Positions 15,878 to 26,604 of a DNA stretch of 35,470 nt are shown one piece after another (the first letter of the stretch is position 1; each line of letters opens with the position of its first letter). Under the pieces are notes generated by a model. That model saw only the letters and a list, made by a program, of their open reading frames with translations, made no database searches and was not told the DNA's origin. The translations under genes and the position numbers were made by a program. This DNA is from an uncultured Eubacteriales bacterium (GTDB lineage: Bacteria; Bacillota; Clostridia; Oscillospirales; Oscillospiraceae): positions 1 to 35,470 of the forward strand of contig ONGR01000028.1 in assembly GCA_900317425.1 (NCBI GenBank), read 5' to 3'.

Positions 15878-15969
15878 GCAGTGGTATCGAAGAGGTCATA
15901 ACGAGCACGACTGGAAATCGTGTTGTCGTCAAAAGCGGCACGAGGGTTCGAATCCCTCCCACTGCGCCA
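15878..15969 (+). tRNA. tRNA-Ser (anticodon GGA)
   Basis: 92-nt class II tRNA. The acceptor stem GCAGTGG/CCACTGC is followed by discriminator G and an encoded CCA. The anticodon arm is CACGA-CTGGAAA-TCGTG with anticodon GGA, the variable arm is long, and the T arm is GAGGG-TTCGAAT-CCCTC. Its 3' end is the left attachment site of the integrated element, and the element preserves an intact tRNA. Confidence 0.95.
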
Positions 15970-15971
15970 TA
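15947..15971 (+). repeat. attL core (25-bp direct repeat) of the integrated element
   Basis: The T-arm to CCA end of tRNA-Ser plus two bases, starting TTCGAATCCC and ending GCGCCATA. It is repeated perfectly at 26536-26560. Integrases of this class commonly use tRNA 3' ends. Confidence 0.95.
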
Positions 15972-15978
15972 GGAAAAA

Positions 15979-16009
15979 CCCCGGAACCATGCGGTTTCCG
16001 GGGCTTTTT
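15979..16009. terminator. Element-supplied terminator after tRNA-Ser and int
   Basis: Hairpin CCCCGGAACC / GGTTTCCGGGG with one bulge, A-rich on the left and GCTTTTT on the right. It ends the tRNA transcript on the plus strand and could end int on the minus strand. It replaces the tRNA terminator now displaced to the far side of attR. Confidence 0.75.
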
Positions 16010-16028
16010 GCTTTCTCTGAAAGGCCCC

Positions 16029-16051
16029 TTTACCCTTTATTTTACCCTTTA
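16029..16051 (+). promoter_or_regulatory. Putative integrase arm-type sites at the left end
   Basis: Two tandem copies of TTTACCCTTTA spaced 12 bp apart, 57 bp inside the attL core. A near-identical 23-bp pair (two mismatches) lies inside attR at 26409-26431. The last bases overlap the int stop codon. The arm-site role is inferred from position and pairing. Confidence 0.65.
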
Positions 16052-17242
16052 CAGGTCCAAAACGGACTTGATATAGTTCTCCATGCGGGCCGCGCTGGCC
16101 TGCTTCATCTGGTCGGTAACATGGCCGTATACGTCGAGGGTGAAGGAGGCAGTAGCATGACCGAGGTTGTCTTGCACCGTCTTGATGTCATCCCCGGAGC
16201 GGATGGCCGCCACGGCGTAGCTGTGCCGGAGATCATGAAAGCGGGCGTCAGGGCGGCCTATGCCGGCCACGATCCGCTTGAATTTCTTGGTCACCGTCCA
16301 GGCTACCAGGTGCCCGCCTATCTCGTTGGTGAATACCAGGTTATCCGGGTTGCGCCACAGTGCCCCCGCCCGCAGCTGGGCGGCTGCCTGTGCTGCCCGG
16401 TGCTTGCGCAGTATATCCATCACCCAAGGTGCCGGTGAGATCGAGCGGGGCTTGTCATTCTTCAGCGGTGCCAGCACGTAGGCCCCGCCCTTTTTCTTCT
16501 CCTTCTGCAGCTGCTGCCGGATCAAGACTGTGCCGGCGGTGAAGTTCACACAGTCCCAGGACAGACCCAGGATCTCCCCCTCTCGCATACCCGTGAACAG
16601 TGTCACCGTGTACAGGGTTTCAAACTCGTGCCCCTTGATCGCCGCGAGGAAGTATTTTGTTTCCAGCTCATCCAGCGGGTGAATATCCGCCTTTTCGATG
16701 CGCGGCAGCGTACAGGCATCCGCCGGGTTATATCGGATCAGGCCGGCGGCTATGGCCTGCTGCAGGGCCTTGTGGAGTACGCCGTGAATGTTTTTCACCG
16801 TCTTAGGGGACAATCCCGGCTTGCCGTCCCTCTCCTTCCCCAGCTCGTTATAGAATCTCTGTATTGTGGGCGTGTCCAGCGCCTCCAGGCGGACGGCGCC
16901 CATGGCGGGCTTGATGTGGTTTTTGATCTGCGTCTTATAGGACGCCACGGTAAAAGGCTTGACGCCGCCCAGGTAGGTATCTGCCCAGGTGTCCAGCCAC
17001 TCCCCCACCGTCTGCTTGCTGGGCGCAATATATGTCCCGCTGTCGATGGCAGCCGTGGCCGCTTTCAGCTTCTGGGCTACCTCCTTCTGCGTCTTGCCGG
17101 TGATAGTCCGCTGGATCTGCTTGCCAGTTCCGGGATCGTACCCGGCGGTATAGCGGGCCTCCCACCACTCGTATTTCTTCCCGTTGCGGGTAGTAATCCG
17201 CTTTCGGATGGTGCCCGTGCCCTTTGCTGCACGTTTGGCCAT
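16049..17242 (-). CDS. int: Tyrosine recombinase (element integrase)
   Basis: 397-aa phage-type integrase. An N-terminal AP2-like arm-binding region (about 1-60) includes KKYEWWEARYTAGYDPGTG. A SAM-like core-binding domain spans about 75-180, and the catalytic domain has R220 (GMREGE), K261, H336/R339 (HDLRHSY), H362 (LGHA) and Tyr372 (LDVYGHV). All key residues are present, so it is likely active. It should integrate the element into the tRNA-Ser 3' end immediately downstream. AAAGGAGAAATTTCT precedes the ATG. A conserved palindrome-plus-hairpin module lies 74 nt upstream of its start. Confidence 0.96.
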   Translation of the reverse strand: MAKRAAKGTGTIRKRITTRNGKKYEWWEARYTAGYDPGTGKQIQRTITGKTQKEVAQKLKAATAAIDSGTYIAPSKQTVGEWLDTWADTYLGGVKPFTVASYKTQIKNHIKPAMGAVRLEALDTPTIQRFYNELGKERDGKPGLSPKTVKNIHGVLHKALQQAIAAGLIRYNPADACTLPRIEKADIHPLDELETKYFLAAIKGHEFETLYTVTLFTGMREGEILGLSWDCVNFTAGTVLIRQQLQKEKKKGGAYVLAPLKNDKPRSISPAPWVMDILRKHRAAQAAAQLRAGALWRNPDNLVFTNEIGGHLVAWTVTKKFKRIVAGIGRPDARFHDLRHSYAVAAIRSGDDIKTVQDNLGHATASFTLDVYGHVTDQMKQASAARMENYIKSVLDL

Positions 17243-17316
17243 AGAAATTTCTCCTTTCCTTTTCGGCCACCCTATGCTATAATGGGCATAGAAAGGCCTA
17301 TCAATTCCTTGTGGGC

Positions 17317-17385
17317 TTTCCTGTCGTCCCGTCCATGGCCGTCACCCATGGGCGGGATTTTTATATTTGTGCCCAAATTGGGCAC
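17317..17385 (-). repeat. Palindrome-hairpin module upstream of int (copy A)
   Basis: Read on the minus strand: 17-bp palindrome (17369-17385), 11-nt gap, then a 41-nt block (17317-17357) with an 11-bp-scale hairpin (17328-17356). The 41-nt block matches the one at 21622-21662 at 36 of 41 positions. A compensated A-T to G-C pair in the stem argues for a conserved fold. It lies in the leader of int in the same orientation as copy B lies in the leader of rep. Confidence 0.75.
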
Positions 17386-17404
17386 CGCCGGCACGTCTGT
17401 AAAT

Positions 17405-17421
17405 GTGTCCGAATTGGGCAC
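17405..17421. repeat. 17-bp palindrome copy 2
   Basis: GTGTCCGAATTGGGCAC, second of five dispersed copies of the GTGYCCRAAWTGGGCAC palindrome in the element. It is 19 nt past the ribbon-helix-helix gene stop codon. Confidence 0.8.
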
Positions 17422-17424
17422 ACC

Positions 17425-17457
17425 CGCCGGCGGGACCGGATCACTCATCCGCCGGCG
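17425..17457. repeat. CCGGCGG hairpin over the 3' end of the ribbon-helix-helix gene
   Basis: 9-bp perfect stem CGCCGGCGG/CCGCCGGCG around a 15-nt loop, spanning the stop codon. Related hairpins lie at 20595-20618, 21566-21587 and 22459-22488, also at gene 3' ends, and form the head of every array unit. Confidence 0.7.
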
Positions 17458-17659
17458 CTGGGATCTCTTCCCCGTCCCGGCGGATCTGTTCATCAATGGC
17501 CCGGTTAATAAAGCCGTTGACGCTCTCCCCGCGGGCCTCTGCGTGAGCCTTGATAACATCCTTGCGTCCCTTAGGAACGGCGATAGATACGCGGTCAAGA
17601 TTTGCCGCGTCCCACCGTCTATTTCCCTCTTTGCGGGCCTCTGTGTATTTTTGCGACAT
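17441..17659 (-). CDS. Ribbon-helix-helix (Arc/CopG-like) DNA-binding protein
   Basis: 72-aa small regulator. The segment NLDRVSIAVPKGRKDVIKAH gives the beta-strand and first helix of an Arc/MetJ fold, and ARGESVNGFINRAIDEQI the second helix, the usual pattern of RHH repressors. AAAGGGAGGTACAC precedes the ATG. A 13-bp palindrome covers the -35 of its own promoter and a second one sits in the spacer of the divergent promoter. It is therefore likely an autorepressor that also controls the plus-strand genes. No toxin partner is adjacent. The int gene follows on the same strand. Confidence 0.8.
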   Translation of the reverse strand: MSQKYTEARKEGNRRWDAANLDRVSIAVPKGRKDVIKAHAEARGESVNGFINRAIDEQIRRDGEEIPAPADE

Positions 17660-17723
17660 GTGTACCTCCCTTTCTTTTTTGGGGGGCGATTGTTAAAAAG
17701 CCTCCCTCTCCTATTGTGTCTAT

Positions 17724-17752
17724 ATTATAGCACATTATCAAGCACTTAACAA
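17724..17752 (-). promoter_or_regulatory. Promoter of the ribbon-helix-helix gene
   Basis: Minus strand -35 TTGTTA (17747-17752), 17-bp spacer, -10 TATAAT (17724-17729). The -35 lies inside the palindrome at 17743-17755. Confidence 0.7.
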
Positions 17753-17822
17753 GTGTAATATTGCACAAATATTCACTTAATAATTGTACGTTTTACCATC
17801 TTTACAATTCACTTATTAAGTG
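17743..17822. promoter_or_regulatory. Operator cluster of CACTTA palindromes
   Basis: Two 13-bp inverted repeats, CACTTAACAAGTG (17743-17755) and CACTTATTAAGTG (17810-17822), plus a half-conserved copy CACTTAATAATTG (17774-17786). All lie in an AT-rich 120-bp interval between divergent promoters. They overlap the key elements of both promoters, as expected for repressor sites, probably of the adjacent RHH protein. Confidence 0.65.
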
Positions 17823-17829
17823 CTATTAT
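17801..17829 (+). promoter_or_regulatory. Plus-strand promoter for the 89-aa gene and second recombinase
   Basis: -35 TTTACA (17801-17806), 17-bp spacer containing a palindromic operator, -10 TATTAT (17824-17829). The 317-nt gap 17660-17976 otherwise holds only this control region and a leader of about 140 nt with a possible 19-codon ORF. Confidence 0.6.
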
Positions 17830-17976
17830 AATACCAGAAGGAGGGAACACCGGCAGCACAAAACAATGTGCTACAAGCGCGGGAGTGGAGAAGCAGAGAT
17901 TGAGACGCCAGAGATGCTAGATTAGCTCAGAACCACCCACCGCCGGGATCCCAAAAATAAGAAGGAGGATCAGATC

Positions 17977-18246
17977 ATGGGTATCAAGGAACTGGAGAAC
18001 AAGGCGCGGGAGCTGCGCCAGCTGCAAGCGCTGATCGAGGAGGCCCAGCAGGAGGCCGAGGCCATCAAGGACGCTATCAAGGCCGCTATGGGCGATTGTG
18101 AGGCCGTCCAGGCCGGGGAGTATAAGATCACCTGGCAGACCATCAAGAGCGCCAGGATCGACACCACGGCCCTGAAAAAGGCTCTGCCGGACGTGGCCCA
18201 GGCGTTTACGAGGGAAACCACCTCCCGGCGGTTCTGCGTGGCGTGA
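17977..18246 (+). CDS. 89-aa coiled-coil protein with YqaJ-type C-terminal segment
   Basis: Small protein. Residues 1-40 are a charged, Gln/Glu-rich helix likely to form a coiled coil. Residues about 42-89 (AGEYKITWQTIKSARIDTTA, then a LKKALPDVAQAF segment) resemble the C-terminal tail found on YqaJ-family phage recombination nucleases, but no nuclease domain is present. AAGAAGGAGGATCAGATC precedes the ATG. It ends 10 nt before the zinc-ribbon recombinase gene, so the two are co-transcribed. It may be a partner or remnant of a phage recombination protein; function unproven. Confidence 0.7.
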   Translation: MGIKELENKARELRQLQALIEEAQQEAEAIKDAIKAAMGDCEAVQAGEYKITWQTIKSARIDTTALKKALPDVAQAFTRETTSRRFCVA

Positions 18247-18256
18247 GGAGGGTGCC

Positions 18257-19390
18257 ATGATATGCCGGAAGTGTAAGGCGGAGATCCCGGAGATCTCCGC
18301 CTTTTGCCTGAAGTGCGGAGCCAAACAGAATGTCACGCATCATCCCAAGGCCCGAGGAAACGGGCAAGGCAGCGTGTATCGGCTGCCGAACAGGACGTGG
18401 ATCGCCGTTATCACGCTGGGTTATGAGGTTGACGCCTGTGGGAAAACTCACCGGAAATGCCGGTCAAAATCGGGCTTCAAAACAAAGAGCGAGGCCGTGG
18501 CCTTCCTCCCCCAGCTGGCACATATGCCGAAGGTCAAAAGGCCCACCAATCTAAAAGAACTGTATGACCGTTGGGAGCCGACACACCGCGCCGGCCCCTC
18601 CACAATGGAGAACTACCGGGCTGCCTTTAAGCACTTCAAATCCCTGTGGTATTACAATCTGGAGGAGATCGAAATTGACGATCTTCAGGAGTGTATGGAC
18701 AGCTGCCCCCGCAGTAAGAGCACCCAGGAGAAGATGAAAGCCGTCATCGGCTTGTTGTTCAAATACGCCATCCCGCGAAAATACGCAACCGTAAACTTAG
18801 GACAATACCTGTATGTAAACGGTGAGTCTACGCACCGGGACGGCCTCCCCCTCGATGCACTCCAGACGCTGCGGCGGGCTGTTGGCCGCGTTCCCTATGC
18901 GGATTACATAGTTGCACAATGCTATATGGGGTTCCGCCCTTCTGAGCTGCTTGCCCTGGATGCACTGGATTATGACCGCCGGCAAAGAGCCTTTACCGGC
19001 GGATCCAAGACAGAGGCCGGGCGTAACAGGATCGTCACCGTGTCACCCGTCATTCAGCCCATTGTTGACCGGCTTGTTGCCGACAAAATCAGCGGCCCGG
19101 TATTCTGCGGCCCGGACGGTGCGGCATTACCTCTGAAGGAATACCGCGAGGCCTTTTATGCTGCCCTGGACGCCGTGGGGATCCGTAACCCCATTACGGT
19201 ACGGGATGGCGTAGAATATCACAAATACACACCCCACAGCTGCCGTCACACCTTTGCCACATTGATGAAAGGCGTCAATGCACCGGATAAGGATAAGCTG
19301 GAGCTGATCGGGCACACCTCCGCGGAAATGCTGCGGTACTATCAAGATGTGGATATTGAGGCGCTCCGGCGGATCACCGACAGCATCTAA
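18257..19390 (+). CDS. Tyrosine recombinase with N-terminal zinc ribbon
   Basis: 377-aa site-specific recombinase, the second of this class in the element. An N-terminal zinc ribbon (C3, C6, C17, C20) is fused to a core-binding domain (about 95-190). The catalytic domain has R227 (GFRPSE), K251, H327/R330 (HSCRHTF), H353 (IGHT) and a Tyr at 361-362. All catalytic residues appear intact. The zinc ribbon is unusual for an integrase. Its job cannot be integration at tRNA-Ser if the attL-adjacent int does that; resolution, excision or rearranging the repeat units is possible. A solo inverted array unit begins 11 nt after its stop. GAGGAGGGTGCC precedes the ATG. Confidence 0.9.
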   Translation: MICRKCKAEIPEISAFCLKCGAKQNVTHHPKARGNGQGSVYRLPNRTWIAVITLGYEVDACGKTHRKCRSKSGFKTKSEAVAFLPQLAHMPKVKRPTNLKELYDRWEPTHRAGPSTMENYRAAFKHFKSLWYYNLEEIEIDDLQECMDSCPRSKSTQEKMKAVIGLLFKYAIPRKYATVNLGQYLYVNGESTHRDGLPLDALQTLRRAVGRVPYADYIVAQCYMGFRPSELLALDALDYDRRQRAFTGGSKTEAGRNRIVTVSPVIQPIVDRLVADKISGPVFCGPDGAALPLKEYREAFYAALDAVGIRNPITVRDGVEYHKYTPHSCRHTFATLMKGVNAPDKDKLELIGHTSAEMLRYYQDVDIEALRRITDSI

Positions 19391-19400
19391 AACGGAAAAA

Positions 19401-19508
19401 GCGCCGGCGGCTGTTGCGGCCCCTGTGTGCCCTCCTGGTGGCCCGCAGCTGCACCCAGGCGTGGAGAGGAGATCCGCCGGCGGGACGGGATCACGCCCGG
19501 CGGGCGCT
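19401..19508 (-). repeat. Solo inverted copy of the array unit
   Basis: The reverse complement holds the same order as the 88-bp array units: GCCGGGCGTGATCC, CCCGCCGGCGGATCTCC, CACGCCTGGG, GCAGCTGCGGGCCACCAGGA, CACAGGGGCCGCAACAGCCG. It carries a 3-4 nt insertion after the ATCTCC box. It directly follows the zinc-ribbon recombinase gene. Confidence 0.8.
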
Positions 19509-19567
19509 CAATAAACTGTGGGCACAGCGTCCACGCTGGGACAACATGGCAGAAATAGAATACCATG

Positions 19568-19601
19568 AAGCAGAACGGCCCCGGTTGGGGCTGTTCTGCT
19601 T
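19568..19601. terminator. Terminator-like hairpin between convergent genes
   Basis: 15-bp stem AAGCAGAACGGCCCC / GGGGCTGTTCTGCTT (one G-T pair) with loop GGTT. It sits between the second recombinase and the convergent repressor gene. No T-run follows on either strand, so termination is uncertain. Confidence 0.5.
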
Positions 19602-19610
19602 CAGCTATAG

Positions 19611-20228
19611 CTATTCATCAGTAAGCGGCTTTCCCTCATCATCTCGGATGGCAGATGCCTCCTTTGTGCGAGTAATAGCCGCCTGTAACTGCAGTGCAAA
19701 GCGAGCGTATGCATCTTGCAGCCCATCAATTTCTTTCAGCGCGGTTCCTGCAAATTGACCTGGCTGCATCTTCTCTAAATTTTCACCGTTGCATATCTCG
19801 CAAAGATGGGCAAAACACAATGTTGCTGCCTCCATGCATTCAGATGCAAATGGTAGTGCAGCTCTATACTTTGTCCCAATATACCTAATAAATTCGTTTA
19901 CGATTCCGTGTAATTCAATAATAGCCTGTGTCTCATGGCTTGTAAGTGCATCTGCACCATCACCCAATAGGTCTTTAATGTCTCGTGGTATCGGCATCTC
20001 ATTGTCTGAGATACCCAACAGAAAGTCAGCAGAAACTCCAAACAGTTCGGCCATTTTATAAATAACGCTGTTTGCTATACCGTTTAATCCGCGCTCATAA
20101 TTGCTAATTGCCTGAGGAGTTATACCAAGTGCAGCGGCAACATCTGCCTGCGTGAGCTTAGCACACATACGGGCGTATTTAATTCGTCTGGCTACCAACA
20201 GCCGGCCCTCCTTGGAATCTAACGGCAT
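19611..20228 (-). CDS. XRE-family repressor (CI-like)
   Basis: 205-aa regulator. The N-terminal helix-turn-helix (about 12-70) includes KLTQADVAAALGITPQAISN and a FGVSADFLLG end, typical of Cro/CI-type XRE domains. The C-terminal 130 residues are helical and probably dimerise; no LexA-type Ser-Lys protease dyad is recognised, so SOS self-cleavage is not indicated. AAAAGGAGGACTTCAT precedes the ATG. It faces a divergent Cro-like gene across a 149-bp AT-rich control region, the layout of a lysogeny switch. Confidence 0.9.
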   Translation of the reverse strand: MPLDSKEGRLLVARRIKYARMCAKLTQADVAAALGITPQAISNYERGLNGIANSVIYKMAELFGVSADFLLGISDNEMPIPRDIKDLLGDGADALTSHETQAIIELHGIVNEFIRYIGTKYRAALPFASECMEAATLCFAHLCEICNGENLEKMQPGQFAGTALKEIDGLQDAYARFALQLQAAITRTKEASAIRDDEGKPLTDE

Positions 20229-20260
20229 ATGAAGTCCTCCTTTTCCGCTTGCTAATCATG

Positions 20261-20288
20261 ATTATAGATGGAAAAATGCAAAAGTCAA
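20261..20288 (-). promoter_or_regulatory. Promoter of the CI-like repressor
   Basis: Minus strand -35 TTGACT (20283-20288), 16-bp spacer, -10 TATAAT (20261-20266). Confidence 0.75.
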
Positions 20289-20307
20289 CAATTTATTTAT
20301 TTTTTGC

Positions 20308-20336
20308 TTGACATTCAACAAATCATTGTTTATTAT
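20308..20336 (+). promoter_or_regulatory. Promoter of the Cro-like gene with operator in the spacer
   Basis: -35 TTGACA (20308-20313), 17-bp spacer, -10 TATTAT (20331-20336). An inverted repeat AACAA-ATCA-TTGTT fills the spacer and is the likely binding site of one of the two XRE regulators. Confidence 0.75.
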
Positions 20337-20377
20337 ATGCATGTACTAAATGATTTATTGTTTTTGGAGGTGACCAT

Positions 20378-20635
20378 ATGCGGCAAAGAACAGAAATCGT
20401 CCCAAACGGCCAGTTGATTGAACGGCTTCGCATTCTCGCAGGTCTCAACAAGCTGCAGGTCGCGGAGGCTGCGGGTATTCCCCATTCGTCCGTAATTCGG
20501 GCAGAGCGCGGCCAGAGCGTCAGTGCCAAAACTGCCGCCGGGATCTGCGAGGCCCTGGGAAAGGAGTTTGACGAACTCTTTTCCATTCACCGGCCCGGCG
20601 GGACGGATAATCCGCCGGCGGAGAAAGGAGCGTAA
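20378..20635 (+). CDS. Small XRE-family regulator (Cro-like)
   Basis: 85-aa helix-turn-helix protein. The domain (about 10-65) includes LNKLQVAEAAGIPHSSVIRA and AKTAAGICEALG. The tail is Pro/Gly-rich, and its codons carry a CCGGCGG-loop-CCGCCGG hairpin (20595-20618) of the element's repeat family. GGAGGTGACCAT precedes the ATG. It opens the plus-strand operon with the excisionase-like and small unknown genes, and likely opposes the divergent CI-like repressor. Confidence 0.85.
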   Translation: MRQRTEIVPNGQLIERLRILAGLNKLQVAEAAGIPHSSVIRAERGQSVSAKTAAGICEALGKEFDELFSIHRPGGTDNPPAEKGA

Positions 20636-20638
20636 CCA

Positions 20639-20830
20639 GTGGATAAGATCGCAATCTCCGTTGAAGAGGCCGCCCAGCTCCTGGGCTTGTGCCCCAAGAC
20701 GGTTTACACGCTCACAAAGCGGGATGACTTTCCCAGTTTCAAGGCCGGAACCAGAACGATCATCAGCGTTGACGGTCTCCGCGCCTGGGCCCTCCGGGAG
20801 GCAGAACGAACAATGAACCCCCGCGCCTGA
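20639..20830 (+). CDS. Excisionase-like helix-turn-helix protein
   Basis: 63-aa MerR/Xis-type winged helix protein. ISVEEAAQLLGLCPKTVYTL is the recognition-helix region and FKAGTRTIISVDGLRAW the wing, the pattern of the excisionase/HTH_17 family. The likely start is GTG at 20639, 3 nt after the stop of the previous gene and preceded by AGAAAGGAGCG. It probably guides the tyrosine integrase toward excision; this is inferred from family and context. Confidence 0.82.
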   Translation: MDKIAISVEEAAQLLGLCPKTVYTLTKRDDFPSFKAGTRTIISVDGLRAWALREAERTMNPRA

Positions 20831-20860
20831 TGGCGCAAAAAATACAAGGAGGAATGAAGT

Positions 20861-21094
20861 ATGAAACAGAACCAGATTACGCGTAGCGGTGCCGTTGGTT
20901 ACGTGGACGCCGACAAGATCCCCGGTGTGGTGGTAAAAGATGGCCGCGCCTTCGGCGAGGCCGGCGGGCGTTTGTGGCCCGTGACTGGTGCCGTCATGCG
21001 CCATGGGAAGCTGGTCCCTATCCTGGACATCCCCATGTGTGACGATCTCCCCGGCGGGACCGTTGTATCTTCCAGCGAGGAGGCGTGCGCATGA
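20861..21094 (+). CDS. 77-aa protein of unknown function
   Basis: I do not recognise a family. The protein is beta-rich in appearance (VGYVDADKIPGVVVKDGRAF, then GRLWPVTGAVMRHGKLVPI) with no membrane segment. ACAAGGAGGAATGAAGT precedes the ATG. Its stop overlaps the next gene by 4 nt (ATGA), which supports it being real and translated. It lies in the early plus-strand operon between the excisionase-like and rep genes. Confidence 0.65.
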   Translation: MKQNQITRSGAVGYVDADKIPGVVVKDGRAFGEAGGRLWPVTGAVMRHGKLVPILDIPMCDDLPGGTVVSSSEEACA

Positions 21095-21483
21095 GTAAGG
21101 TGCTTACCGATCGGGAGATTATGGAGCTGTGCGACATGGCCCCTTGCGCAGAAAACGATGGGCTCGCAGAATTGGCCGATGAAGCGGATGTAATCGTTAA
21201 GGCCGCAGCGTCTTATATCCACACTTTGGACAATCCCCAGGAGCGTATTGTATTTGCCATGAGAGCTTTTTATCTGCTAGGGGTACAGCGTGGCGGTGAA
21301 GCTTACCGCATGATGCAAGACGCTATTGGTACAGTACGGCCTGCACTGTCCTTTTCTCTGTGCGACGTGTACGAGGAGGAAATTGTGGACGATCTGAAGG
21401 AGATAGGGCGTAAGTATCTCAACACTATATGCCGCCAATTCGGCTTCGTTTTTGCGGATGATGGAGGTGTTTCTCTTGTCTGA
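21091..21483 (+). CDS. 130-aa protein of unknown function
   Basis: Acidic, mostly helical protein without a recognised domain. It starts MSKVLTDREIMELCDMAPC and has a central helical part (ERIVFAMRAFYLLGVQRGGE). ATG 21091 is chosen because AGCGAGGAGGCGTGCGC precedes it; an in-frame GTG lies 6 nt upstream. It overlaps both the previous gene (ATGA) and the next, so it sits in a coupled operon. No function can be given. Confidence 0.65.
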   Translation: MSKVLTDREIMELCDMAPCAENDGLAELADEADVIVKAAASYIHTLDNPQERIVFAMRAFYLLGVQRGGEAYRMMQDAIGTVRPALSFSLCDVYEEEIVDDLKEIGRKYLNTICRQFGFVFADDGGVSLV

Positions 21484-21637
21484 AACTTCAGCCCGGCGGC
21501 TGGCCGCCATGCTGACGGATCAGCAGCGGCGGGACGTGCTGCAGCTGGCCCAAGCAATCATCGCCCCGGCGGATTTTGTCCCGCCGGCGGATGTGCCCAA
21601 ATTGGGCACCGGTGACGCTGTTCCCGTCCGTGGGTGA
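21476..21637 (+). CDS. 53-aa protein of unknown function
   Basis: Small ORF with a likely TTG start (21476) six bases after GGAGGTG, overlapping the previous stop codon. An N-terminal helix (RRLAAMLTDQQRRDVLQLAQ) is followed by a Pro-rich tail. That tail is encoded by a CCGGCGG hairpin (21566-21587), the 17-bp palindrome (21593-21609) and the 5' arm of hairpin module B. The second half may thus be repeat sequence read through by the ORF. Start and function uncertain. Confidence 0.5.
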   Translation: MSETSARRLAAMLTDQQRRDVLQLAQAIIAPADFVPPADVPKLGTGDAVPVRG

Positions 21638-21662
21638 CGGCCACGAACGGGACGGCAGGAAA
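21593..21662 (+). repeat. Palindrome-hairpin module upstream of rep (copy B)
   Basis: 17-bp palindrome (21593-21609), 12-nt gap, then the 41-nt hairpin block (21622-21662) matching copy A at 36 of 41 positions. It has the same order and the same orientation toward the downstream gene (rep) as copy A has toward int. Confidence 0.75.
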
Positions 21663-21676
21663 ACAAAATAAAGAAT

Positions 21677-21756
21677 GAGTGTAGAGGCCCGTGCGTTTAG
21701 CGCCAGAGCCCGCCGGATTTACGCGGCTGGTGGAGGGAGTGCCTCTACACTCTTTT
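21677..21756 (+). promoter_or_regulatory. Large inverted repeat before rep; candidate attenuator or replication origin
   Basis: A perfect 12-bp inverted repeat GAGTGTAGAGGC / GCCTCTACACTC encloses 52 nt with a further imperfect stem. It is followed by TTTT and then, 4 nt later, by the GGGGGA ribosome binding site of rep. It could end transcription early to limit Rep synthesis, or be the nicking origin for the HUH protein. Confidence 0.55.
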
Positions 21757-21769
21757 CATAGGGGGACAT

Positions 21770-22525
21770 ATGGCTAAACGAAAGAAAACGATCATAGCCG
21801 GGCGGATCAGAAAGACGGTGCTCTATACAGCGCCGGAACCACTGGACGGGCCCAGAACGCGGGCAGAGAAGTCCCGCATGACCACCGCAGCCCAGAAGAT
21901 CATGAACGACAAGAGCGCCCGCAATCGGCTGGAAATGCTGCTTGCCTGTAACTTCTCCGGGCGGGATCTCTTCATCACTCTGACATACCGTGACGCAGAT
22001 CTCCCGGCCAAACGGGCGGAGGCCGTCCGCCTGTGCCGGGAGTTCATTGCCAAGCTGCGCACAGCCAGGAAGAAGCGCGGGCAGCGGTTGAAATACATAT
22101 ACACCACAGAGGAAAAGCACGGTGAGGCCCGCTTGCACCACCACCTTATGATCTCCAGCACCGAACACGATATAGAAGAGATCCGCAGCCTGTGGCCCTA
22201 TGGTGACGTGGTTGACGTGGAGTATGTGGCAGCTCGTGAATATGACGTGTGGGCCGCATACATGACAAAGGAGGGTGTACAGGGCCGGCCCGTTGGTGCC
22301 CAGCTCTGGACGGCCAGCAAAGGCATGGACAAGCCCGTTGTTATTTCGGAGTATGTGCCCAATGATACCGCGCTGGCCGTGCCGGCGGGGTGCCATGTGA
22401 TCGAGCGTGAGGAGAAGGTGACGGAGTTCGGGAGCTATTGCTATATCAAGTACAAAGTGCCGGCGGATTATCACGATCAGGCGCCGGCGGATCAGCAAGG
22501 CGGACGCCTTGTTTCTTGCTTGTAG
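21770..22525 (+). CDS. rep: HUH-family rolling-circle replication initiator
   Basis: 251-aa replication protein resembling phage gpA/G2P-like and plasmid Rep endonucleases. Motif 1 is FITLTY (68-73). The metal-binding HUH motif is LHHHLMI (His123-125). The nicking tyrosine is probably in the stretch AAYMTKEG (Y164, K167). Such proteins nick one strand at an origin and stay covalently bound through tyrosine during rolling-circle replication. TAGGGGGACAT precedes the ATG. The 3' end carries a CCGGCGG-type hairpin (22459-22488). With int and xis it suggests an element that excises and replicates as a circle. A role in processing the array hairpins, as REP-associated HUH transposases do, is speculative. 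Confidence 0.85.
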   Translation: MAKRKKTIIAGRIRKTVLYTAPEPLDGPRTRAEKSRMTTAAQKIMNDKSARNRLEMLLACNFSGRDLFITLTYRDADLPAKRAEAVRLCREFIAKLRTARKKRGQRLKYIYTTEEKHGEARLHHHLMISSTEHDIEEIRSLWPYGDVVDVEYVAAREYDVWAAYMTKEGVQGRPVGAQLWTASKGMDKPVVISEYVPNDTALAVPAGCHVIEREEKVTEFGSYCYIKYKVPADYHDQAPADQQGGRLVSCL

Positions 22526-23090
22526 CAAGATATATCTTTAGAAACAGCATAGAGAAATTGCAACCAGGCTATTGAGACGGCCGGCGGGATGGCGTATCAT
22601 GGGCACACGGGCGGAGTTCACCGGTGCACAGGGAACGACGCCAGAAACGGGCGGGAAATAGCTGGCTTTTTTGCGCCCATTTTGCCGTAAACTCTACGCC
22701 TGCGCCCTGGCACACCAGCGGGCGTACCCAGGTGCGCAGCTGCACGCGCGCACAGCCCCGAAGGGGCGCACCTCTCCCCCGCCCTTGGAAAGTTTTGAAA
22801 GCCCCCAGGTAGATACCCCGTGCCCCCTCAAACGTGAGAAAAATTCCCCGATGGAGAAACCGGGACGCCCGGCGGGCCACAGTGTCCAAAATGGGCACAA
22901 ACGCCGGCAGATACCCCCCCTTCTTCCGTCAGCTGTTTGCCGTCATTCAGGGACCGGCGGGGGAACACTGCGCACACACGGCGGAAATTTTTTCCGGGGG
23001 AAAATCCGCCGGGCGTTTCGCATTATGCGCGCGGTACACGCCCATGGGCCGCGGACGTGTAATGCGGGCAGGTTTCCCGCACGCATTGCC
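22526..23090. other. Non-coding GC-rich region between rep and the array
   Basis: No ORF here has a ribosome binding site or family match. A weak terminator-like hairpin (GCCAG-loop-CTGGC then TTTTTT, about 22632-22664) follows rep. Further on are short inverted repeats such as GCCCCGAAGGGGC and one copy of the 17-bp palindrome. A single-strand origin could lie here, but nothing specific is recognised. Confidence 0.5.
22882..22898. repeat. 17-bp palindrome copy 4
   Basis: GTGTCCAAAATGGGCAC, about 190 bp before the array. Confidence 0.75.
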
Positions 23091-24587
23091 CAGACACGGA
23101 TCTCCAGGCCTGGAAGCTGCAGCGGGCCGCGAGAAGGCCACACAGGAGCCGCAGTAGCCGCCGGGTGATTCCGTCCCGCCGGCACGATCTCCCCGCCTGG
23201 GCGCCGCAGCGGGCCACCAGGGGCCCCACAGGGGCCGCAGAAGCCGCCGGGTGATCTCTGTCCCGCCGGCAGATCTCCACGCCTGGACGCAACTGCGGGC
23301 GCCAGGGGGCCCCACAGGAACTGCGGGCGCCAGGAGGCCACACAGGGGCCGCAACAGCCGCCGGGTGTTCTCTGTCCCGCCGGCGGATCTCCAGATCAGA
23401 GCGCAGCTGCGGGCGCCAGAAGGCCCCACAGGGGCCGCAGCAGCCGCCGGGGAGATCCTCTATCCCGCCGGCACAGATCTCCACGCCTGGGCGCAGCTGC
23501 GGGCCGCCAGGACGCCCCACAGAGGCCGCAGCAGCCGCCGGGTGTGTTCCCGCCCCGTCGGCGGATCTCCACCGCTAGGGCGCAGCTGCAGGCCGTCAGG
23601 AGGCCCCACAGGAGCTTCAGCAGCCGCCGGGTGTGATCCTCTCCCTCCGGCGGATCTCCATGCCTGGGCGCAGCAGCGGACGCCAAGATGTCCCACAGAA
23701 GCCGCAGCAGCCGCCGGGTGTGTTCCCGCCCCGCCGGCGGATCTCTATGACCAGAGCGCCGCAGCGCGCCTCCAGGAGGCCCCACAGGGGCCACAGCAGC
23801 CGCCGGGTGTGATCCTCTCCCTCCGGCGGATCTCCATGCCTGGGCGCAGCAGTTGGCCGCGAGAAGGCCACACCGGAGCCGCAGTAGCTGCCGGGTGATT
23901 TCTGTCCCGCCGGCACGGATTTCCACCGCCAGGGCGTAGCAGCGGACGTCAGGAGGCCCCACAGAAGCCGCCGGGTGATCTCTCTATCCCGCCGGCACGG
24001 ATCTCCAACGCCAGACCGCCCCAGCTGGCTGCCAGAAGGCTCACAGGAACCGCAGTAACCGCCGGGCGCTCTCCGTCCCTCCGGCGGATCTCCACGATCA
24101 GAGCGCCGCAGCGGACGCCAGAAGGCCCCACAGGAGGCCACAGCAGCCGCCGGGTGTGATCCTGTTCCTCCGGCGGATCTCCATGCCTGGGCGCAGCTTC
24201 AGACCGCTAGAAGGCCCCACAGGGGCTTCAGCAGCCGCCGGGTGATCTCTCTATCCCGCCGGCACGGATTTCCACCGCCAGGGCGTAGCAGCGGGCCATC
24301 AGAAGCCCCCACAGGGGCCGCAACAGCCGCCGGGTGATTTCTGTCCCTCCGGCGGATCTCCACGATCAGAGCGCCGCAGCGGACGCCAGAAGGCCACGCA
24401 GGGGCCGCAACAGCCGCCGGGTGATCTCTGTCCCTCCGGCGGATCTCCACGATCAGAACGCAGCTGCGGGCCACCAGGAGGCCCCGCAGGGGCCGCAACA
24501 GCCGCCGGGCGTGATCCTGTCCCGCCGGCGGATCTCCACGCCAGGACGCTACAGCGGGCCGCAACTCGTCACCTCAGCCGCCGGCGG
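23091..24587 (+). repeat. Degenerate tandem array, about 16 mosaic units of ~88 bp
   Basis: A partial unit, then 16 units starting GCCGCCGGG from 23158 (next at 23243, 23357, 23443, 23534), ending at GCCGCCGGCGG (24577-24587). Each unit has a head hairpin (CCGCCGG, 10-15 nt, CCGGCGG), an ATCTCC box, a variable body, often CGCAGCTGCG or a similar palindrome, and a tail GGCCCCACAGGGGCC-like hairpin followed by GCAGCA. Bodies fall into a few types (ATGCCTGGGC; ACGATCAGAGCGCC; ACCGCCAGGGCGTAG; AGATCAGAGCGCAG) that combine with different heads. Unit lengths such as 85, 114, 86 and 91 are not multiples of three, and open frames in it show no gene features, so it is non-coding. Function unknown. Confidence 0.85.
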
Positions 24588-24592
24588 TGCAT

Positions 24593-24609
24593 GTGTCCAA
24601 ATTGGGCAC
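24593..24609. repeat. 17-bp palindrome copy 5
   Basis: GTGTCCAAATTGGGCAC, 5 bp after the end of the array and 59 bp before the serine recombinase stop codon. Confidence 0.8.
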
Positions 24610-24668
24610 AATTCCACAGAAGCAGAAAAAGGACCACCCCGCAGGATGATCCCTTTCTCCCCACCGCT

Positions 24669-26162
24669 TTATAGGGGTTGCAGCTCAATATCAAGCGAAA
24701 ATGCCATGGGCGGAGTTTTCTTTTCCTTGTGATACACCACCCGGCGGATGATCGCCTTTAGGAGCTGGTTTTTCCCCTCTGGTGATAGTGTTGGGTACAG
24801 ATCCAGCACGTTATCAATCGCCGTAACCGTCTGCTCCTTATTATGAACGCGGGCCGCGTTTAGCTCCAGCTTGATTTGCTCGCGCCTTTCAAGCAGATCA
24901 TTTCTTTCCGCCTCCGCTTTGTCCATGCGCTCCCGGAAGATCTCCCGGCTATACGTCCCATCTTCAAGCAGATCGCACAGCATGGCTTTTTTCTGCTCGT
25001 TCTTCTTCAGCTGTCCCTCAATGCCACGTAGTGCCATCTCTATTCCGCTGGTATCCGGCGGCGTGGCCTGCTGGATCTCGATACGCAAATTATCCCGGAT
25101 CTCCTCCAGATTGGCCAGCAAACGCCCCTCCACATAGTCAAAGCGCGCGGAGGCAATGCAGCCCTTGGTATTGCAAAGCAGGCGGGGATCTCCCTTGTTC
25201 TGTCCCATGCGGACCATATTATAGCCGCAGTTGCCGCAGACCACCAATCCGGACAGCGGGTTAGCTACCTGCCCATGATTGTTGGAGGGGATATAGCGCC
25301 CCTGCCGGATCTCCTGGGCCCTCTGCCAGTCCTCCCACGAAATGATAGCCGGGTGCAGACCGTCCACCATAAGCCAATCCGCCGGCGGCTGGTAGATAAC
25401 GTGGTGCTTTGGGTTTGCTTTGTTGGGCTTGATATGCTTTACTCTGTTCCATGCCACCTTGCCGGCATAGGTGGGATTGCGGAGGATCTGGCGGACAGTG
25501 GAGCGGCACCACTTGGCGTTTCGGTTTGGGACGCTGCCCATGGCGTTGAGCTCGTCCGCAATGGTGTGGGCGCCCACGCCCTCCAGATACCGGCTATATA
25601 TGTGCCGGATGTATGGGGCCTGCTCCTCGTCTATCTCCAGAGAGGGCAGCTTCCCCACGGTGCATTTGCGATAACCATACGGCGCATTTGCCACATAGCC
25701 GCCGGCCTCCACCGTCTGCATCAGACCGCGCCGCATACGCTTACGGATCATGCGCAGCTCCATCCGGGCGAAGAAGGATTTCATCTCCGTCTGTTCCTCG
25801 TCCAGATCGTCGGTCAGATCGTAGGTCTTTCCGGGGCATATAATCAGCGTTTCCGAGAGCCTGAAAGCCTCCAGGATGATACCCTGTTCTGACATGGCAC
25901 CGCGCCCCAGGCGGTCTATATCCGCACAGAATACCCCATCATATGCACCACTCTCCACTTGTTCCAGGAGTTTGAGCATCTCCGGGCGGGCATAGAGTGA
26001 TTCACCGGATACGACCTCTTCATACATGTCGATACCGCCGGCGGAGATCCCCATACGCTCCGCCAGTTCAAAGAGCATCTTGCGGTGTTTGGCAAGGACT
26101 TCCGCCGTGGTTTCGTGTGGGCTGTCCGCCCGTGACTTACGCAAATACATGGCATACGCCAT
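24669..26162 (-). CDS. Large serine recombinase
   Basis: 497-aa serine integrase-type recombinase. The N-terminal resolvase domain carries the nucleophile Ser10 (YLRKSR) and DIDRLGRG (about 81-88). A recombinase domain follows (YGYRKCTVG through NPTYAGKVAWNR). Next come a zinc ribbon (CGNCG plus a later CNTKGC), a long coiled coil (about 370-460) and a conserved end region (SPEGKNQLLKAIIRRVVYHK). It appears intact. AGGCGTGAAAA with GGAG upstream supports ATG 26162. It is embedded in the repeat array, with units on both sides, and lies on the strand opposite rep. It may be a second mobile module that inserted into the element, or the enzyme that acts on the array. The two cannot be told apart here. 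Confidence 0.95.
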   Translation of the reverse strand: MAYAMYLRKSRADSPHETTAEVLAKHRKMLFELAERMGISAGGIDMYEEVVSGESLYARPEMLKLLEQVESGAYDGVFCADIDRLGRGAMSEQGIILEAFRLSETLIICPGKTYDLTDDLDEEQTEMKSFFARMELRMIRKRMRRGLMQTVEAGGYVANAPYGYRKCTVGKLPSLEIDEEQAPYIRHIYSRYLEGVGAHTIADELNAMGSVPNRNAKWCRSTVRQILRNPTYAGKVAWNRVKHIKPNKANPKHHVIYQPPADWLMVDGLHPAIISWEDWQRAQEIRQGRYIPSNNHGQVANPLSGLVVCGNCGYNMVRMGQNKGDPRLLCNTKGCIASARFDYVEGRLLANLEEIRDNLRIEIQQATPPDTSGIEMALRGIEGQLKKNEQKKAMLCDLLEDGTYSREIFRERMDKAEAERNDLLERREQIKLELNAARVHNKEQTVTAIDNVLDLYPTLSPEGKNQLLKAIIRRVVYHKEKKTPPMAFSLDIELQPL

Positions 26163-26181
26163 TTTTCACGCCTCCAATCGT

Positions 26182-26209
26182 ATTATGATGGCAATAGTCT
26201 ATCTGATAA
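26182..26209 (-). promoter_or_regulatory. Promoter of the serine recombinase
   Basis: Minus strand -35 TTATCA (26204-26209), 16-bp spacer, -10 CATAAT (26182-26187); moderate match. Confidence 0.45.
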
Positions 26210-26221
26210 CCTGCTTTCTGT

Positions 26222-26390
26222 TAAGGCCCACAGGAACCGCAGTAACCGCCGGGCGCTCTCCGTCCCTCCGGCGGATCTCCATGCCTGGGCGCAGCTTCAG
26301 ACCGCTAGAAGGCCCCACAGGGTCGCAGCAGCCGCTGGGTGTGATCCTGTCCCGCCGGCGGATCTCCAGATCAGAGCGCCTCTGCAGCGT
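26222..26390 (+). repeat. Two array units on the far side of the serine recombinase
   Basis: One full and one partial unit in the same orientation as the main array. A 53-nt stretch (26229-26281) is identical to 24042-24094 (head of one unit). The next 40 nt match the body of the following main-array unit (24181-24221). This unit is therefore a precise mosaic of two units in the main array. Confidence 0.85.
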
Positions 26391-26408
26391 CATATATTTG
26401 GGTGTTTC

Positions 26409-26431
26409 TTTACCCTTGCTTTTACCCTTTA
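26409..26431 (+). promoter_or_regulatory. Putative integrase arm-type sites at the right end
   Basis: Tandem TTTACCCTT-type boxes identical to 16029-16051 except for two adjacent bases, 104 bp inside attR. Other short inverted repeats between here and attR (GGAAAGC-CAGT-GCTTTCC; TTTCCACCGTGGAAA) may bind excisionase or host factors. Confidence 0.65.
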
Positions 26432-26535
26432 GGCAAGGCCGGCGCAATTCAAAGGGTGCCACGCAATACCACGCACAGGCACAGGAAAGCAACGGAAAGC
26501 CAGTGCTTTCCACCGTGGAAAACTGGCCCCTTTAA

Positions 26536-26560
26536 TTCGAATCCCTCCCACTGCGCCATA
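26536..26560 (+). repeat. attR core (25-bp direct repeat)
   Basis: Perfect copy of 15947-15971, the tRNA-Ser 3' end. No tRNA body precedes it, so it is the displaced attachment site and not a second tRNA gene. Confidence 0.95.
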
Positions 26561-26604
26561 ATGAAAACAGGTCGCCCTAAGGGCGACCTGTTTTCATTAT
26601 TGAT
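26558..26604 (+). terminator. Original tRNA-Ser terminator, displaced by the element
   Basis: 20-bp perfect stem (26558-26577 / 26581-26600) with loop TAA and a T-rich 3' side (CTGTTTTCATTATTG). It begins within the attR core, so before insertion it followed the tRNA directly. The rest of the gap to 26717 holds nothing recognised. Confidence 0.8.

Follow-up and report, generated by a model that had tools for sequence, protein, structure and literature searches.

A mosaic, GC-rich tandem repeat array beside the rep gene of an integrated element in an uncultured Oscillospiraceae bacterium

Results

The element and its genes

The window analyzed here, a 35,470-nucleotide stretch of contig ONGR01000028.1, contains an integrated element of ∼10.6 kb (15947-26560) that is flanked on both sides by directly repeated sequence from a tRNA-Ser 3' end (gene at 15878-15969; repeat copies at 15947-15979 and 26536-26568, 91% identical). 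A tyrosine integrase gene (16049-17242, minus strand; PF00589, E = 2.3e-21) adjoins the tRNA end, and a second tyrosine recombinase (18257-19390, plus strand; PF00589, E = 2.7e-8) has a zinc-ribbon-like N-terminus that scores below the Pfam cut-off (PF13240, 22.4 bits versus 25). The replication initiation protein, Rep (21770-22525, plus strand), belongs to the REP_ORF2-G2P family (PF23343, E = 2.6e-14; phrog_3584, E = 3.3e-51) and carries an HUH-type motif, RLHHHLMIS, in which HHH corresponds to residues 123-125. A large serine recombinase gene (24669-26162, minus strand; PF07508, E = 1.7e-26; PF00239, E = 2.9e-17) splits the repeat array described below. An initial annotation, made from the sequence, had named three site-specific recombinases and an HUH nuclease in this element, and the Pfam and PHROGs scans of 10 element proteins found all four, with Rep as the HUH-type protein and the recombinases divided into two of the tyrosine and one of the serine type. 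Regulators and an excisionase-like protein are also encoded. A small open reading frame at 17977-18246 resembles the C-terminal region of RecE-like exonucleases (phrog_434, E = 2e-15), and CTTTACCCTTTATTTTACCCTTTA occurs near both element ends (16028-16051 and 26408-26431, 92% identical), where the two copies are possible integrase arm sites. No second copy of the element was found by blastn in 32 genus genomes or with the repeat-unit model in 400 family genomes.

The end of rep coincides with a hairpin (TCTTGC-TTGTA-GCAAGA, then the conserved ATATATCTTTAGAAAC; 22514-22545, plus strand) whose stem of seven pairs spans 22514-22530. Rolling-circle nick sites typically combine a hairpin of varied stem with a conserved flank. 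In 15 of 17 loci with a closely related rep, the gene likewise ends in a hairpin flanked by an invariant CTTTAG (the motif was not found in L012 and L022), and by eye the stems differ: TCTTGC/GCAAGA in the window, TTACTTC/GAAGTAA in L058, and CTTAC/GTAAG in L014 and L015. We predict that this hairpin is the Rep nick site, or double-strand origin, a function that we infer from its form and position. The element thus has both an HUH-family Rep and a predicted hairpin origin with a conserved putative nick region, as rolling-circle replicons do.

Layout and composition of the array

The main array (23075-24578, plus strand; TRF and unit model) consists of 17 units of ∼88 nt, of which the first is strongly diverged and the last truncated; TRF itself called a period of 89 nt with 14.1 copies at 23323-24562. 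A covariance model of the unit found 20 matches in the window: these 17, two at 26244-26388, and one inverted at 19413-19505. Because the model was built from 17 of its 20 matches, only those at 23075, 24500 and 26330 are new. Beyond the serine recombinase, the array part at 26229-26388 (plus strand) opens with a unit tail, continues with a hybrid unit (26244-26329) and closes with a truncated one (26330-26388). The inverted solo unit (19413-19505, minus strand), located after the second tyrosine recombinase gene, scores 81 bits with the model and is 81% identical to the array by blastn. The initial annotation had placed ∼16 units before the serine recombinase; that array is upheld, while its count becomes 17 with the diverged first unit, and the model also matches both the two units reported beyond the recombinase and the inverted solo copy.

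Self-alignment of the 2 kb after rep gives a best ungapped score of 134; none of 12 random sequences from a first-order Markov model exceeds 16. The units have a G+C content of 70-72%, versus 43-61% over most of the element, and a mean pairwise identity of 0.75 (n = 15); they are head-to-tail diverged repeats within the range of roughly 10-100 nt that defines minisatellites, or VNTRs. Conservation within the unit is uneven: the stem arms reach 0.99 and 0.94 and the GATCTCCA stretch that follows 0.96, versus 0.70 for the loop and 0.78 for the middle. The unit core, CCGCCGGG/CCGGCGGATCTCC, is thus conserved far above its loop, and the high conservation of the arms and GATCTCCA is the best sign of constraint in the array.

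Unit sequence borders the serine recombinase gene at both sides; the gene would have come into the array by insertion or by later rearrangement. Its closest relative in the 400 family genomes (70% identical, in G020) lies 11.8 kb from a rep relative on the same contig, and such recombinases therefore also accompany related elements. The G020 match begins only 17 bases before the start of the serine recombinase gene.

Coding and folding

A protein-coding array is ruled out by unit length, divisible by three in only 3 of 16 units, and by stop codons in all six frames (4 to 8 per frame, 23156-24563), in line with the initial annotation. The array is also unlike CRISPR, as had been claimed: whole 88-nt units are related to one another, near-identical short repeats with unique spacers were not seen, and the Pfam and PHROGs scans of 10 element proteins gave no cas family.

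The folding energies of eight window sequences do not stand out from those of their shuffles (z from -1.54 to +1.13), and the same holds for five tiles of the array, each 257-286 nt long (z between -0.74 and +0.48 across the two strands, with 60 shuffles each). Over 17 units, pairing holds in 98% of cells for the head inverted repeat and in 80% for the tail helix; no compensatory double change occurs in 13 pairs, and the whole structure pairs at 90.2%, versus 90.8% with shuffled partners. The consensus fold of 13 window units is equalled by 25 of 100 column shuffles, and those of the L058 and L064 arrays by 78 and 68 of 100. Paired columns are conserved at 0.94, versus 0.76 for unpaired ones (13 units), and the homologous unit of L010 shows no 3' arm of the head. 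Rfam gave no match to the array at the gathering score, the sole overlap being Six3os1_1 at 18.3 bits versus the required 50. We rejected a structured RNA array on these grounds; neither folding beyond composition nor compensatory change, as expected of structured RNA or single-stranded DNA hairpins, was found. The earlier description of hairpin-rich units, each with a head and a tail hairpin, does not survive this comparison: because folding energies and consensus folds lie at shuffle level, the array is GC-rich, not specially hairpin-rich.

Mosaic units and their exchange

The units are mosaics of one another. The initial annotation had singled out an exact hybrid of one head with another unit's body, and the sequences are indeed identical: 26229-26281 has the same sequence as 24042-24094, and the 42-nt bodies at 26281 and 24183 match in full. 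The join falls inside a stretch common to both parent units. Likewise, the unit at 24233 has a head identical to that at 23966 and a middle identical to that at 23886. Thirteen identical runs of at least 24 columns were found; 4 start at a unit edge and 9 at columns 18-24, directly after the variable loop, while their 3' ends are scattered from column 26 to 89. Similarity between units does not decay along the array (Mantel r = 0.08, a value as low arising in 3720 of 5000 shuffles), and neighbor slippage alone is therefore not enough: exchange must have been long-range.

How, then, did the units come to be mixed? We read the mosaic as the product of repeated long-range homologous exchange. Columns 18-24 could be a preferred exchange point, or merely the edge of the variable loop. 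Despite the clustering of 5' ends by this loop, homologous exchange fits better than site-specific shuffling. GTTRRRY and RYYYAAC, which we take to be the attC core-site motifs, occur in none of 16 units, and the units follow head to tail with no gene cassettes or other cargo between them, as integron attC sites would have. The cassette-like shuffling proposed initially is not supported, given the position of the hybrid join in a shared stretch, the scattered 3' ends, the lack of integron motifs, and the one-unit difference between two relatives described below. Taken together, the array is confirmed as tandem, non-coding and mosaic.

Distribution of the units

In the bacterium's own genome (96% complete), the unit model run to E = 1 gave 21 matches, of which 20 lie in the element and the remaining one is at chance level (E = 0.56); blastn of the array hit four places, all within the element. 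The initial annotation had named two outcomes that would speak against its reading, units equally common across the host chromosome and an intact protein gene at this place in relatives, and neither was found: 20 of 21 matches are in the element, without the dispersed chromosomal copies of REP/BIME sequences, and the homologous array of the relatives L009 and L010 is tandem and non-genic in position, with short open frames crossing it. Such frames run across the arrays of L009, L010 and L064, and we read them as a GC effect.

The 32 genus genomes include the bacterium's own; blastn gave short matches (33-45 bases) in three of the others. In the 400 family genomes the unit model, under strict filters, matched its own genome only; 11 candidates were scored per genome, and because this model (R1) is too narrow, missing even the L009 and L010 arrays, the 399 others are clear of close copies only. 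A 17-base head pattern occurs once in each of 10 IMG/VR contigs, in which the best unit-model match is 22.8 bits (E = 0.026). A search of viral contigs by Rep gave 20 pattern stretches and no relative, one by the serine recombinase gave no useful match, and neither did megablast against plasmids and phages. No title listed in literature searches dealt with such arrays.

Arrays in related elements

Rep relatives comprised 15 loci from named genomes and those in 61 of 400 family genomes (E = 1e-20); TRF was run on 55 loci with rep, several of which are one place represented twice. GC-rich arrays after rep were detected in L009, L010, L015, L058 and L064 and in their duplicates, and in none of the loci whose Rep is at most 47% identical. 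Other arrays among the latter lie 3.2 kb after rep (L087), 6.7 kb after it (L078) and 7.5 kb before it (L091). In the 17 close-rep loci, all six TRF arrays with a period of at least 40 fall in the first 2.1 kb downstream of rep, which amount to 31,578 bases, and none in the 215,158 bases elsewhere. Duplicates (such as L010 = L055 and L015 = L060) were counted once here and in the self-comparison below; L016 contributes only 194 bases after rep to the position count and was omitted from the self-comparison. Because the longest non-coding stretch lies after rep, this enrichment is in part due to it. Since an origin-like hairpin ends rep, the arrays are also origin-proximal.

Self-comparison of 16 close loci revealed clear direct repeats in seven, the seventh being L021, and none clear in the other nine. 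The array is therefore dispensable; L011, for example, has a Rep 72% identical and no array. On the rep tree, array presence changes five times, at least three of these changes being forced by well-supported branches.

The seven arrays have unit lengths of 88, 87, 87, 169, 167, 108 and 59 nt. A search for a common motif in six of them showed that 7- to 9-mers are shared no more than in Markov controls, with the exception of nine-mers present in at least four arrays (2, versus a control mean of 1.1 and a control maximum of 5). The window array scores 36 against L009 (30 controls, 14.8 ± 2.5, maximum 21) and 49 against L010 (16.2 ± 2.7, maximum 24). By these scores, the window units are homologous only to those of L009 and L010, which are 87 nt long, the other arrays bearing no detectable relation. 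Two weaker scores, the window against L058 in reverse (26, control maximum 23) and L015 against the first block of L021 (20, maximum 18), leave those similarities unproven. L009 has three units and L010 four, with last units of different type; the two loci agree at 911 of 970 positions over the 1 kb after rep and at 529 of 550 after the array. Unit number, whose comparison among related elements had been proposed, thus differs by one, and variation between close relatives, as in VNTRs, was seen for this homologous array only.

Other features near rep

Of 15 close loci tested, 10 encode a small CxxC zinc-ribbon-like protein immediately downstream of rep; it is missing from the window (22530-22900), and tblastn with the L013 copy gave no significant match in the element. 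A G+C-rich block at 22735-22850, with AAAGTTTTGAA...GTGAGAAAAATTCCCC, has a similar counterpart at the equal place in L058 and L064 and by eye occurs twice in L009 and L064; it is possibly a lagging-strand origin. The genome contains a second rep gene (L054, contig C23; 33% identical) with no tandem array by TRF.

A 17-bp palindrome, GTGTCCAAATTGGGCAC (24593-24609, no strand assigned), sits where the main array ends. The palindrome GTGYCCRANTYGGRCAC has copies at 17369-17385, 17405-17421, 21593-21609 and 24593-24609, all four adjoined by CGCCGG-type sequence, and an imperfect copy at 22882. All eight copies in the genome lie in the element or within ∼13 kb of the second rep gene, and the stretch fetched around that gene holds two. 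Among 120 family genomes the palindrome is present in 13, with 37 copies versus 2 for the reversed pattern, and in relatives some copies are directly upstream of a gene start. Symmetric changes suggest that it may be a dimer-binding site; a literature search with four spellings of it gave no paper. The shorter CCGCCGGCGG has 11 of its 65 genome copies in the element, 6 of them outside the units, including two inside the serine recombinase gene (25379, 26035).

Discussion

The units after rep are tandem, diverged and mosaic; arrays recur at the equal place in relatives, mostly with unrelated units, and unit number varies. On balance, we lean to the view that the array is origin-proximal, minisatellite-like DNA that homologous recombination has amplified and mixed. 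The integrative element would replicate by its rolling-circle Rep, which would nick the hairpin at the end of rep; the array segment would then be copied first, passing through a single-stranded form. GC-rich repeats would be gained, lost and mixed there by homologous exchange, whether by strand slippage, unequal crossing-over or gene conversion, between copies or element circles, and the element's site-specific recombinases would not be the mixing agents. The arrays could be explained without any sequence-specific job, and the conserved unit core may nevertheless bind something. Some observations sit uneasily with this explanation: conservation within the unit is uneven, which is unexpected for a purely neutral repeat; similarity does not decay with distance, and 9 of 13 runs start at columns 18-24; and CCGCCGGCGG is enriched in the element outside the array as well.

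The main and serious rival, rather unlikely as we judge it, is that the units form an array of sites bound by a protein that the element or host encodes, acting for example in copy-number control, incompatibility or partition, so that a site of its own would keep each element compatible with its relatives. Incompatibility sites, like these arrays, are found close to rep and vary from one relative to another; the arms and GATCTCC core stand well above the loop and middle in conservation, CCGCCGGCGG occurs six times outside the units, and a ribbon-helix-helix-like protein recurs in eight tested relatives. Yet the arrays have no common motif, many relatives with a 62-74% identical Rep have no array, and no partition ATPase is among the 10 element proteins (Pfam, PHROGs). 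That the repeats act instead as single-stranded DNA hairpins (a lagging-strand origin, leading-region promoter or recombination sites) or as structured RNA seems improbable to us. The almost constant pairing of the head, the higher conservation of paired columns and a position shortly after the predicted nick would suit such a role, but the tail helix pairs less often, compensatory changes are absent, pairing, folding energy and consensus fold stay at shuffle level, the L010 unit lacks the 3' arm of the head, and Rfam offers no usable match.

We give least credence, and very little, to a cassette-like array shuffled by one of the element's site-specific recombinases. Three recombinase genes, mosaic units (one exact), clustered run starts and the lack of distance decay would all fit it; against it stand the scattered right ends of the runs, the missing integron motifs, repeats without cargo, and arrays of quite different sequence in relatives, while the gain or loss of a unit between L009 and L010 fits homologous deletion.

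The arrays mark one constant hot spot of repeat amplification, next to the predicted origin in a family of small integrative elements, at which the place is kept and the unit sequence is replaced. This makes testable whether rolling-circle replication drives the formation of bacterial minisatellites and whether arrays set compatibility between related elements, and it corrects a tempting reading of mosaic repeats next to recombinases as a cassette system. A bolder idea, which we think improbable, is that the arrays serve a family of integrative rolling-circle elements as rapidly changing tags of identity, with sequence, not just number, setting compatibility. Each element would then build its own tandem sites after rep, and these tags would govern compatibility in the same cell, for example with the second rep-bearing element of this genome.

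It is instructive to compare the array with known systems. Bacterial minisatellites, or VNTRs, are likewise tandem and non-coding, with tens of bases per unit, mosaic units and a number that differs between relatives; the present array, in contrast, is tied to a place after the rep of an integrative rolling-circle element, and it is the place, not the unit sequence, that recurs. Iteron and partition-site arrays share the tandem non-coding repeats by a plasmid replication gene and the conserved core of each unit, but their repeats are short, whereas the unit here is ∼88 nt, its sites are putative, and many close relatives lack it. Integron attC arrays resemble it in having imperfect inverted repeats associated with a tyrosine recombinase, and differ in their cargo and core-site motifs. 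REP/BIME sequences, finally, share GC-rich palindromic or inverted repeat heads and some dispersed copies; those are scattered over the chromosome, whereas the units described here are confined to one element.
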